Position numbers and translations under genes: made by a program. The notes under the pieces were generated by a model. That model was not told the DNA's origin, searched no databases, and saw nothing but the letters and a program-made list of their open reading frames with translations. Below, piece after piece: positions 53,982 to 64,000 of a DNA stretch of 64,000 nt. The stretch covers positions 124,001 through 188,000 of the forward strand of contig CANMKG010000005.1 in assembly GCA_947498505.1 (NCBI GenBank), in the 5' to 3' direction. The stretch comes from an uncultured Maribacter sp. GTDB taxonomy: Bacteria; Bacteroidota; Bacteroidia; Flavobacteriales; Flavobacteriaceae. The first letter of the stretch is position 1; the number at the start of each line of letters is the position of its first letter.

Positions 53982-54056
53982 CGGGGTGTAGCGTAGCCCG
54001 GTTATCGCGCCGCGTTTGGGACGCGGAGGTCGCAGGTTCGAATCCTGCCACCCCGA
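53982..54056 (+). tRNA. tRNA-Pro (anticodon TGG)
   Basis: Acceptor CGGGGTG / CACCCCG with an A discriminator. Anticodon stem CCGCG/CGCGG around the loop TTTGGGA, T-arm AGGTTCGAATCCT. CCA is not encoded. The gene is intact, and an integrase gene begins 224 bp downstream, so its 3' end is the probable attachment site of the element that follows. Confidence 0.97.
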
Positions 54057-54058
54057 CA

Positions 54059-54134
54059 AAAATGGTATTTTTTAATACCATTTTATAACTAATTAAATGA
54101 AAACCAAGGAATTAAATATTTCTTGGTTTCATTT
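54059..54134 (+). terminator. Tandem hairpins after tRNA-Pro
   Basis: First stem AAAATGGTATT / AATACCATTTT (54059-54084) with a T4 loop. A second hairpin pairs AAATGAAAACCAAG with CTTGGTTTCATTT (54095-54134) with one bulge. Together they end the tRNA transcript at the junction with the element. Confidence 0.75.
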
Positions 54135-60249: not shown

Positions 60250-61356
60250 ATGAAAATAGCCACATTCAACATTCAAAACTTATTCCACAGACATCGGGAA
60301 CTCATTAAAACGAACAGAACTAAAAACGCTACCGATTGGATTTCCGAATTGGATGCGCTGTTAAGAAAGCCTACAAAAAATACGGAGGACAACGAGCGTA
60401 TCAATTGTTTATCATTCTTACTTGGGTTTGAGAAGACAGAAGACAATCCGTATGCTATCTTGAAGCGGCAAGCGGGTGAACTTCATTTTAAGGGTAGGGT
60501 AGTGGAAAATACAACCAAGGCTTCTTTTCTTACCGACTGGCAAGGTTGGACGAAATTAGCGAACAGGCCCATACATGAAAAGGCCATTTTCTGTAAGGCG
60601 TATATGGTTGCCGAAACCAATCCTGATATTTTAATTTTACAAGAAGTCGAAGACCGCGCTTCACTAGTGGAGTTTAATTATGAATTTTTGCCACTCCTAA
60701 AGATTACACCCTATCAAGAAGTCATGGTCTTTGAAACAAATGATAGTAGAGGGCTGGGAATGGGAATAATGTTGAAAGAAGGATATCACTTAAGCGGTTT
60801 TAAAAATCATCTACATGATTTAGACTACGAAGGTTTTACCTTATTTGATGTGGATTGTCAAGAATATTCGATTGTAACTCCAAAAGGAGCTACTATTTAT
60901 GTATTGAGCAACCAGTTTTCATCGGATGAAAACCAACGAAAGGAACAGGCTGAGAAAGTGGCTGAGCGCTATTTGCAATTACGGGAAGGAGATAATAATT
61001 TGATTGCAGTATGCGGTACCTTAAATGATGTGTCATACAGCGATTGTTTGTCGCCATTACTTCGAGAAACGGATTTAACGGATGTATCCAAAAACAAAAG
61101 ATTCAAATCCGATACAGATTTAGGAAGGGATAAGAATTACTTTAGATTGGGAGCCTACCGTATGGGAATAAATATTAAGCAGCAAGACTATCTAATGCTC
61201 TCGCCTAGCTTATTCGAAAAAATAAAGAAGGCAGGAATGAACCGACAAGGCACCTGGCCAGAACGGAAACCGAATTGGAAACTGTATCCGTCAATAGCAA
61301 GTAAGAATCATGCTGCTAGTGAACATCCTTTGATTTGGGCTCGAATTGATTTATAA
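60250..61356 (+). CDS. EEP (endonuclease/exonuclease/phosphatase)-family protein with altered active site
   Basis: 368 residues from the ATG at 60250 (MKIATFNIQNLF). Early family motifs are present (FNIQNL, then ILILQEVE with the metal-binding Glu). Later ones are changed: the usual NHxxS motif reads SNQFSS (Q222 for His), and GDFN/GDxND reads CGTLND (T257 for Asp). The final SEHPLIW keeps H359. Metal-dependent cleavage may be weak or lost, unless this is a family with its own chemistry. It follows the ATPase by 10 bp in the element. Confidence 0.78.
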   Translation: MKIATFNIQNLFHRHRELIKTNRTKNATDWISELDALLRKPTKNTEDNERINCLSFLLGFEKTEDNPYAILKRQAGELHFKGRVVENTTKASFLTDWQGWTKLANRPIHEKAIFCKAYMVAETNPDILILQEVEDRASLVEFNYEFLPLLKITPYQEVMVFETNDSRGLGMGIMLKEGYHLSGFKNHLHDLDYEGFTLFDVDCQEYSIVTPKGATIYVLSNQFSSDENQRKEQAEKVAERYLQLREGDNNLIAVCGTLNDVSYSDCLSPLLRETDLTDVSKNKRFKSDTDLGRDKNYFRLGAYRMGINIKQQDYLMLSPSLFEKIKKAGMNRQGTWPERKPNWKLYPSIASKNHAASEHPLIWARIDL

Positions 61357-61363
61357 TTATTCG

Positions 61364-62770
61364 TCAATATCTTACTAGTTGTAGTTCCTCAAGCCGTATA
61401 GCCATAGCTTCGGTTGAGACGTTAAATTTGTTTGATAACGAAGTGAATTCTTTATTATCAAATGACTCTAATGCGGCTAATTTTCTTGAAAATCCGCGAA
61501 GATTTTTACATTCCCTTCTTATATCATTCGTACTGCGCCCACCAAATTTAAAAGCAGAGTTTTCGTTTAGCTCAAAAAGCTTTGATGAGAAGATTTTTTC
61601 GAATTCTTTTTGAATTGATTTTGTGGGCATTAAGAAAAAGGTGGCGAATTTATCAGCATGAACTTCGGTTTTATCCCGAGTTTTTCTTTTTCCGGCACAA
61701 TCGGTGGGTATATCTCTATGTAAAATCGGTTGTTCATGAAGTATTGCATGACCTAGTTCATGTGCAGCTGTAAATTTCTGTACCTCTGGTGAAAACGAAT
61801 TGGATACGGCAACAAGCTTATTTGGTTGGTCTATTATTCCAGCAACTTCAATTACTTCACCCTCTTTAGAAGGGATTCCAAATCTAGTAGAAGAGAAGTA
61901 GTCGTAACCCAAGACTCTCTTTAAAATCAAATCAGGACGGAGGATTTGAAGTTCATTATTTGGAATGTTCTTTTTCCATATTAAATGTCTATTTGTCCAT
62001 ACAAGATTTTGCAATTCTCTAACACATTGTTCGATATTCAAATCTATATTTCCACGATATTTATTTATTATGTCGTTTACTCCTTGAAATAAAGGTATTT
62101 TCTCTTCAAATTCAGCTTGAAGTATTTTGATTTTTGAATTAGCAAGTTTGTTTAATATTTGATATTCCTTGTCCAAATCATCTACTTTGGAAACAACAGA
62201 TTTACAATATTCAAATTCATCACTATCAAAAGAAAGTACGTTAAGTCTAATAATTGCGATACAACCCGCCAGAGCAGAAACAGCACCGCTTAAACCTACT
62301 TGAGAATCACCACGAGCAGATTTAAAGCCGTTATCAAATACATAAGCTGAAATTTCGGCTAACTCATTGCAAAGAGAGGCAATCTGCAATGGTATGGCGA
62401 TAGCAATTTTGAGCTCTTCAAGTGCTTGCCTTCTAAGCTGATTTTTGGTTGCTTCATCTTTCTCTTCATTCCGAGCTATTCTCAGTTTTATCGTTTTATC
62501 AAATTGTTCAGAATCAAATTGAAACAAATCTACAAGCGTGGGATAAATTCGTCTTTCAATTTGTTCTTGAAAATCGAGTAATTCAATTACACAATGTGAA
62601 TATAAATGCCTTCTTTTTTCGTCTGCGGTTAGACTAATTACCGTGGAAATCAGTTTGGCGGAAATCATACCTTGAAACGCCGCAGCACTTCCGGAGCCGG
62701 GCTTATGGTTTCCTGCTCCAAATTTTTCCATTAAGTCTTCAACTGTTTTTTTTATCAATTCTGATTCCAT
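61364..62770 (-). CDS. Cyclodeaminase/cyclohydrolase (FTCD_C-like)-ImmA/IrrE metallopeptidase fusion
   Basis: 468 residues. The N-terminal half (about 5-205) is all-helical and matches the formiminotransferase-cyclodeaminase C-terminal family (FGAGNHKPGSGSAAAFQGM, then LSGAVSALAGCIAIIRLNV). A helical linker leads to an ImmA/IrrE-type zinc peptidase: AHELGHAIL with H337, E338 and H341, and E369 in EVHADKFATFFLMP as third ligand. ImmA/IrrE proteins cleave repressors in characterised systems. The folate-ring or ligand-binding half may be a sensor. It is convergent with the EEP gene and divergent from two small genes, with a 10-bp inverted repeat between. I know no described system with this fusion. 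Confidence 0.78.
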   Translation of the reverse strand: MESELIKKTVEDLMEKFGAGNHKPGSGSAAAFQGMISAKLISTVISLTADEKRRHLYSHCVIELLDFQEQIERRIYPTLVDLFQFDSEQFDKTIKLRIARNEEKDEATKNQLRRQALEELKIAIAIPLQIASLCNELAEISAYVFDNGFKSARGDSQVGLSGAVSALAGCIAIIRLNVLSFDSDEFEYCKSVVSKVDDLDKEYQILNKLANSKIKILQAEFEEKIPLFQGVNDIINKYRGNIDLNIEQCVRELQNLVWTNRHLIWKKNIPNNELQILRPDLILKRVLGYDYFSSTRFGIPSKEGEVIEVAGIIDQPNKLVAVSNSFSPEVQKFTAAHELGHAILHEQPILHRDIPTDCAGKRKTRDKTEVHADKFATFFLMPTKSIQKEFEKIFSSKLFELNENSAFKFGGRSTNDIRRECKNLRGFSRKLAALESFDNKEFTSLSNKFNVSTEAMAIRLEELQLVRY

Positions 62771-62853: not shown

Positions 62854-62888
62854 GATATAATCCAATAAATAGGAAATAATCCAAATAT
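62847..62888. promoter_or_regulatory. 10-bp inverted repeat across promoter and start codon
   Basis: ATATTTGGAT (62847-62856) and ATCCAAATAT (62879-62888) are perfect inverted copies 22 bp apart. One arm covers the -7 box and the other the ATG of the small gene. It is a candidate operator between the fusion gene and the small genes, or an RNA hairpin hiding the start. Confidence 0.55.
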
Positions 62889-63147
62889 GAAAGATATCGT
62901 GTTTCGCAATTACGATAGATATGCCTTAAAGCATTTATTGAAAGAAATAGGGGAGCATCGGCTAAGAAAGGAATGCGAAAACAAGCATTTAAATTTTCCA
63001 AGACGGTTGGCCTTGTTTTATATCGAAGCACGGGATAGCAATACCATGCTAATCTATAAATATCCGCAAAAAGGGATTTGGGGCATCATGGTCATTGACC
63101 GTTATGACTTACCAGATTCGGGTTGGGTACGGGTACATTTACAATGA
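62887..63147 (+). CDS. Small hypothetical protein
   Basis: 86 residues, basic, no signal peptide and no known motif. A strand-rich C-terminal half (LALFYIEARDS, MLIYKYPQKG, WGIMVIDRYDL) suggests a small alpha/beta domain. Its TGA overlaps the next ATG by the ATGA pattern, so the two genes are coupled. The minus-strand frame opposite it has no support. Confidence 0.6.
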   Translation: MKDIVFRNYDRYALKHLLKEIGEHRLRKECENKHLNFPRRLALFYIEARDSNTMLIYKYPQKGIWGIMVIDRYDLPDSGWVRVHLQ

Positions 63148-63479
63148 AAAAGAACGAAGATATACGAACGGTAACTATTGGAATACGGACATTGCATCTC
63201 ATTGAAGGTCTAACGATAAAAAAATATATACCGGAAACTATTCTGAATATGGTTCATGATGCATTGGCGGATCAAGACATGAAATGGGAGGATGAGGTAA
63301 TCGCTAACTGTACCATGGTGATAAGCCACGGTACACATGTATCGGTACTATATGAACACGAACCCATGCGTTTTAATGGGCTACTGCTTTTTACCTTTTG
63401 CCAAGATGCTAAAAATGAGCATTGCTTTGGTTTTCCAAAGAAGGGGAATCATATTGAGTATTATACTCGAATAAAGTAA
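63144..63479 (+). CDS. Small hypothetical protein
   Basis: 111 residues from the ATG at 63144, four-base overlap with the previous stop; an earlier in-frame start at 63123 lies inside that gene. Mixed alpha/beta, with several His and Cys (CTMVISHGTHVSVLYEHEP and FTFCQDAKNEHC) that could bind metal. The family is not recognised. It is part of the cargo between the metallopeptidase fusion and the SIR2-type gene. Confidence 0.6.
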   Translation: MKKNEDIRTVTIGIRTLHLIEGLTIKKYIPETILNMVHDALADQDMKWEDEVIANCTMVISHGTHVSVLYEHEPMRFNGLLLFTFCQDAKNEHCFGFPKKGNHIEYYTRIK

Positions 63480-63596: not shown

Positions 63597-64000
63597 ATGG
63601 AAGACCACGAACTAAATCATCAAAAAAGTATTTTTCAAGATTGCAATATAAATTTCCTTATTGGTTCTGGGTTATCAAGCCCTTTTTTCGGAACGTTAGG
63701 TAACATTGAGACTTGGTTAGAAGGACTTGAAAGTTTGAAGTCTTCTAAATTAATTAGTGATGCCGATTACACTATTGTAAAAGCAACTCTTTATAAAACC
63801 TATTTTGATGTTGCGATGAAAGCAAATATTGAAATTAGTAAAACCAAAATAACCAAAGATGAGTACGAAGCTGCTGAGAAAACTTCAGCGCATAAGCTGA
63901 ACAATACGTATAAAGCGTATAAGGATTTTTTTAAAACTCTCAATCATATTTTATATGAAAGAAGAAGCAATACTGTAAACAAACAGATAAACCTTTTCAC
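63597..64000 (+). CDS. SIR2-family protein, N-terminal part (cut by window end)
   Basis: Open from the ATG at 63597 to the last base, 134 complete codons. It reads MEDHELNHQKSIFQDC then NFLIGSGLSSPFFGTLGNIE (residues 19-38). This NFLIGSG-type glycine loop followed by a GN motif is the NAD-binding start of SIR2-like domains found in antiphage proteins. The rest is helical and charged (SDADYTIVKATLYKTYFDVA). It does not appear as a complete frame because it has no stop inside the window. A downstream HerA-type ATPase or other effector partner would be expected if it is a defence gene. The function is inferred. Confidence 0.7.
   Translation, partial: MEDHELNHQKSIFQDCNINFLIGSGLSSPFFGTLGNIETWLEGLESLKSSKLISDADYTIVKATLYKTYFDVAMKANIEISKTKITKDEYEAAEKTSAHKLNNTYKAYKDFFKTLNHILYERRSNTVNKQINLF

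Follow-up and report, generated by a model that had tools for sequence, protein, structure and literature searches.

On the integrative element ICEBs1, excision is set off when the M78 protease ImmA cuts the repressor of the element, and ordinary relatives in the FTCD_C family, which includes FchA and the FTCD cyclodeaminase domain, form oligomers. PprI is described as an M78 protease activated by single-stranded DNA, with a GAF-like domain needed for activation (PMC10904395), and this is a precedent for a ligand-switched M78 protease helped by an added domain. Sensor-coupled M78 proteases are a known kind of protein, and those considered here respond to single-stranded DNA. In the gene described here an M78 protease is joined to a quite different domain. 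Both this type of sensor and a clade of stand-alone relatives appear to be new, and no paper joining the cyclodeaminase-type and M78 families was found in the open-licence literature, in agreement with the first, sequence-only reading of this DNA, which took the idea of a small-molecule-sensing protease controlling the element or a defence response to be undescribed.

The gene lies near the right end of the window (the whole stretch of 64,000 nucleotides that was analysed), and its parts are as follows.

61364..62770, minus strand: fusion gene, 468 aa, ATG start; divergent FTCD_C-like domain and M78 (ImmA/IrrE) metallopeptidase
62213..62746, minus strand: FTCD_C-like all-helical domain, residues 9-186 (Pfam PF04961; helices in the model)
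62039..62212, minus strand: helical extension, residues 187-244 (model helix 183-238), the least conserved stretch
61367..62038, minus strand: M78 peptidase half, residues 245-468 (Pfam PF06114 over residues 315-393; PADLOC capP over 316-392)
61748..61762, minus strand: HELGH zinc and catalytic motif, residues 337-341, identical in 10/10 intact fusions
61664..61666, minus strand: E369, third zinc ligand, identical in 10/10 intact fusions

Both halves were matched well above the Pfam gathering cut-offs in an HMM check, FTCD_C over residues 9-186 (E 1.9e-24; 86.8 bits versus 24.5) and Peptidase_M78 over residues 315-393 (E 1.3e-14; 54.4 bits versus 22), so that the claim of two unrelated families in one chain, with the N-terminal half in the cyclodeaminase family, was borne out. 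The protease site had been read as intact, and H337, E338, H341 and E369 (HEXXH and the downstream Glu) are indeed identical in the alignment of all ten intact fusions. Structure prediction, which had been proposed as a check, gave an AlphaFold model of the chain with a mean pLDDT of 89.9 and a pTM of 0.72 (15 aligned sequences as input), in which helices extend as far as residue 238 and the mixed protease half follows. The C-terminus after the peptidase is helical in the model and conserved in the alignment, and Pfam yielded only PilB3_C (E 0.039) and no HTH family. Relative to the Aequorivita fusion, dN is lowest in the N-half (0.18), higher in the protease half (0.26) and highest in the joining stretch (0.36; dS was saturated or not computed). 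The genome of the window has one FTCD_C match and one M78 match, both of which are the fusion gene.

PprI/IrrE of Deinococcus resembles the fusion in that an M78 protease with the HEXXH motif is combined with a further domain involved in sensing, and the family profile weakly matches the solved IrrE chains 8slm (1.2e-4) and 3dte (3.3e-4). However, the extra domain of the fusion is an N-terminal FTCD_C and not a C-terminal GAF-like domain, the IrrE/PprI mark, for which no Pfam match was found, and no DdrO-like partner is seen alongside the gene. Among the PADLOC models, capP matches the protease half best (2.4e-19, residues 316-392), and the solved CapP of CBASS (CapH/CapP), 7t5t, matches positions 330-383 of the family profile. 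The fusion differs from CapP in its FTCD-like N-half, which is unmatched by the solved CapP sequence, and neither CapH nor a CBASS operon was found among the seven window proteins scanned with PADLOC, or in SIR2 and HerA; for the other loci this comparison covered 25 of 117 matching families.

Intact fusions, each in one open frame and with identical domain order, were found in ten distinct genomes, namely nine Bacteroidota and one Burkholderiales MAG; the count of further fusions that had been called for thus comes to nine besides the window. A pattern-based scan of a species-genome collection detected 11 relatives (five intact fusions, one broken and five protease-only), the intact ones being those of Kordia algicida, Mucilaginibacter pankratovii, an uncultured Mucilaginibacter, Aequorivita capsosiphonis and the Burkholderiales MAG. 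Whole-genome surveys added four (genomes G150, G474, G513 and G1061), and the window completes the ten; G1064 proved to be the Kordia genome once more and was not counted; since it falls in one family with the window genome, the window probably comes from Flavobacteriaceae. Because ten distinct genomes hold both parts in one frame and in constant order, the possibility raised at the outset that two separate genes had been joined by an assembly error is ruled out. The broken relative, from a Balneola MAG (L009:7959-9384), is not open in one frame and is preceded by genes that look phage-like by reading. The five protease-only relatives (Ferrigenium, Nitrosomonadales, Spongiibacter, a gammaproteobacterial symbiont and Mariprofundus) show 39-45% identity. 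At the N-terminus of protease-only relatives (L010-L013, L096), a short peptide resembling RRLLQNPYAYLDxxGGY, present once or twice, replaces the FTCD half.

The fusion is rare. In overlapping genome draws that include the centre genome itself, intact fusions were found in 2 of 395 genomes of the phylum at a threshold of 1e-20 (plus one broken copy and one broken FTCD-only gene), 4 of 395 of the class (with 18 more matches that are FTCD_C-only, 17 of them ordinary) and 3 of 397 of the family (with two more FTCD-only matches). Draws from two other orders gave 1/16 and 1/248, the centre genome both times, and the phylum of the Burkholderiales MAG gave 1/378, again the centre genome, together with five protease-only matches, one of which has an internal stop. 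No match to the fusion was found at 1e-5 in 50,697 phage records, and 72,556 plasmid records contained no match at 1e-5 to the fusion, the stand-alone protein or a protease-only relative; as a positive control, ordinary FchA detected 14 plasmid records. In viral contigs 32 loci were matched, every match falling inside query residues 265-400, and the N-half profile had no match there. On these searches, a phage- or plasmid-borne module was rejected.

The N-half is not an ordinary member of its family. In the domain tree, the ten fusions and two intact stand-alone proteins (245-246 aa) form a clade with support 1.000, on a long branch apart from 17 ordinary FTCD_C proteins. Within the clade, the nine Bacteroidota fusions are grouped at 0.996, and all ten N-halves are monophyletic at only 0.690. 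The M78 tree places the Burkholderiales fusion with proteases that have no N-half (support 0.893), so the coupling of the two halves may have arisen or vanished more than once. Six residues (H22, S26, R97, R100, R153 and G154) occupy their alignment columns in all ten fusions and both stand-alone proteins and in none of the 17 ordinary relatives, which have P, A or M (mostly P) at 22, G at 26, F, Y or H at 97, P or N at 100, V, I or L at 153 and T or S at 154. The solved relatives 7vg4, 1tt9 and 1o5h, which are of one family with the N-half by sequence, have Gly at the position of S26 and no H22. Conversely, N46, D84 and N173, fixed in 17/17 ordinary relatives, are replaced in the fusions, and the ordinary GGG loop is GSG. 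K51, found in 16/17 ordinary relatives, is apparently lost, a loss that depends on the alignment because the fusions differ in length there and often have basic residues nearby. P24, G25, G27, S28, D86 and N177 are kept in all ten fusions and D155 in nine. A housekeeping FchA was considered and ruled out by the clade support, and the Burkholderiales genome has an ordinary FchA-like gene as well.

Judged from these alignments, the clade residues may line one pocket, and the His and three Arg fixed in the clade suggest an anionic ligand and not the usual folate chemistry. With these residues gained and three of the family's fixed ones replaced, the N-half more probably holds a rebuilt, more basic ligand site than a working folate enzyme. 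A small-molecule-sensing protease, as the sequence-only reading had proposed, stays the best idea, and in our tentative opinion, with somewhat less than an even chance of being right, the fusion is best explained as a self-contained, one-gene, ligand-gated M78 sensor-protease for stress or phage defence. The N-terminal helical domain would descend from cyclodeaminase/cyclohydrolase enzymes, with its ligand site rebuilt and made more basic, and would most likely bind a small anionic ligand that arises or is altered in phage infection or similar stress. This signal would pass through the connecting helix to switch on the M78 peptidase, which would then cleave a protein encoded elsewhere, either a host or phage protein or a non-adjacent repressor. 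Among 114 neighbour proteins from the ten loci no Pfam family occurred in more than two, and HTH_3 was found in two, so that an adjacent XRE repressor is not the rule; since no partner is fixed beside the fusion, the protease probably acts on a conserved protein of the host or of a phage, or on the fusion itself. By analogy with PprI, the gene may encode an M78 protease switched by a re-purposed cyclodeaminase fold. If this is true, a protease is hard-wired to a re-purposed metabolic enzyme domain, and a small-molecule state becomes regulated proteolysis in one gene; a clade of 12 members with clear signature residues makes the ligand-sensor idea testable. A broader view, which we regard as possible but on balance doubtful, is that the divergent FTCD_C clade comprises unrecognised ligand receptors of immunity or stress, acting alone or fused to M78, the fusion then being a one-gene metabolite-gated protease whose sensor is an old folate-enzyme fold remodelled for a nucleotide-like or other anionic signal.

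The strongest competitor of the ligand-gated protease is that the N-half is an oligomerisation scaffold that binds nothing, while the M78 half senses the signal, for example single-stranded DNA, to which PprI and CapP are reported to respond. The oligomers of ordinary relatives, the existence of the protease-only relatives, the capP match of the protease half and the activation of PprI by single-stranded DNA (PMC10904395) are consistent with such an arrangement. A mere scaffold would, however, not be expected to keep P24, G25, G27, S28, D86 and N177 in 10/10 fusions, or to fix H22, R97, R100 and R153 in 12/12 clade members, and we consider it unlikely.

Less probable still, and quite improbable in our judgement, is a true folate sensor or enzyme, with methenyl- or formimino-tetrahydrofolate as ligand or substrate of the N-half, which would couple the one-carbon state to the protease. 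The N-half is homologous to FchA and FTCD, with an NCBIfam FchA (NF045657) match at 9.4e-18 and a profile match to the solved FchA 7vg4 at 1.3e-22, and part of the glycine loop, D86, D155 (9/10), N177 and often a basic residue near the ordinary K51 are kept. The FchA match nevertheless reaches only 64.4 bits versus the equivalog cut-off of 275, and the replacement of N46, D84 and N173, the GSG loop and the His at position 22 in place of mostly Pro all speak against it. The separate clade, the gain of His and three Arg and the fused protease also set the protein apart from FchA and FTCD. A folate-type ligand, named among the checks of the sequence-only reading, is weakened by the replacement of fixed residues in a separate clade and by the lack of S26 and H22 in the three solved relatives.

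The fusion gene is cargo of an integrative element of 45.8 kb in tRNA-Pro. Two direct copies, 17 bp long, of the 3' end of tRNA-Pro bound it and support the mobile element that had been proposed. Its conjugation genes were recognised by reading and RteC by Pfam. The features of the element near its left end and around the fusion are listed below.

54045..54061, plus strand: left attachment repeat, tRNA-Pro 3' end, repeated 45.8 kb downstream (C5:223837)
62887..63147, plus strand: small ORF, 86 aa; similar ORF in the sister element L084 (by reading)
63144..63479, plus strand: small ORF, 111 aa from ATG (118 aa from an upstream TTG); similar ORF in the sister element (by reading)
63597..64000, plus strand: first part of the SIR2 gene (full length 398 aa; PADLOC); HerA (609 aa) follows beyond the window

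The SIR2 defence gene noted alongside was confirmed (PADLOC SIR2, 1e-59), and HerA lies just past the window end (3.7e-174). The gene adjoining the fusion on the other side (60253-61353) has a weak Pfam match to the endonuclease/exonuclease/phosphatase family (E 0.092). The other, right end of the element carries a mixed defence cassette (L003:11668-19500, L109:569-8182) made up of a type IIG restriction-methylation enzyme and of helicases like DrmD, DruE and UvrD, the DruE-like protein having been scanned without its N-terminus. In a sister element (L084, genome G973) similar small ORFs adjoin a stand-alone clade member, and the stretch that was read there contains no fusion. The 86-aa ORF thus belongs to the element, and the two small ORFs are ruled out as partners of the fusion. 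The stand-alone FTCD-like protein stands in a row (L084:7919-12369) with an ASCH protein, a 681-aa protein that has a GNAT domain and matches the PADLOC candidate PDC-M11A, a 150-aa protein without a Pfam match and an HNH-looking gene.

At the other loci, no genes like those of the tRNA-Pro element were noticed in the flanks, which were read for at most about 9 kb to either side and for less where a contig ended. The Kordia fusion is a single gene between two conserved flanking genes, the downstream one of which is present in 9 of 11 Kordia genomes, K. algicida among them; the fusion is absent there in the other eight. In seven of these eight both flanking genes are present, 0.5-1.3 kb apart, and five of the seven gaps are filled by other genes, so the site is a variable spot and not a simple empty site. 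Two of the gaps contain an HTH and PIN pair (L115, L119), which shares 67-72% identity with the one next to the fusion of G1061 (L083:10523-11531). The fusion behaves as accessory cargo. An ImmA-type regulator that cleaves the element's repressor to cause excision is very improbable: the fusion, like ImmA, is an M78 protease gene on an integrative element, and a 90-aa XRE-looking gene (by reading) at the element's far end, about 37 kb away, is a possible target in the window genome, but no XRE gene adjoins the fusion in the window, the sister element shows a stand-alone FTCD-like gene and no fusion in the part that was read, and the Kordia copy is alone at its variable chromosomal spot. The fusion further differs from ImmA in being much longer by its extra half and in having no ImmR-like gene beside it, and its homologues show no tie to elements as far as their flanks were read. 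Control of the element, one of the two roles first suggested, is weakened accordingly.

As for the other role, defence-type genes were found within 6 kb of the fusion at six of the ten loci: SIR2-HerA; dCTP deaminase with an RmrA-like gene; AbiTii; type I RM with PrrC; SoFic; and a partial Ppl match. As controls, ten segments at arbitrary positions in six of the fusion genomes were used, 13 of their 102 proteins being scanned singly. When only clear systems were counted, a criterion set after seeing the data, 6/10 fusion loci versus 1/10 controls were positive (p 0.029), the latter being one clear restriction locus (L101). When any PADLOC match at 1e-15 was counted, at least 5/10 controls were positive too (p 0.50), with DnaG-, dGTPase-, UvrD- and GlgB-type matches in segments L099, L103, L104 and L106. 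An earlier test with five loci gave p 0.07 or 0.17, and SoFic was added as the sixth by a later scan. The enrichment of defence genes near the fusion thus depends on how matches are counted, and the context is at most suggestive of a defence role. Just upstream of a Mucilaginibacter fusion (L006:2479-7610), a multi-ubiquitin protein, a ThiF/E1-like protein, a dCTP deaminase and an XRE-ImmA protein were found, the last with weak capH and capP matches and a better match to RmrA.
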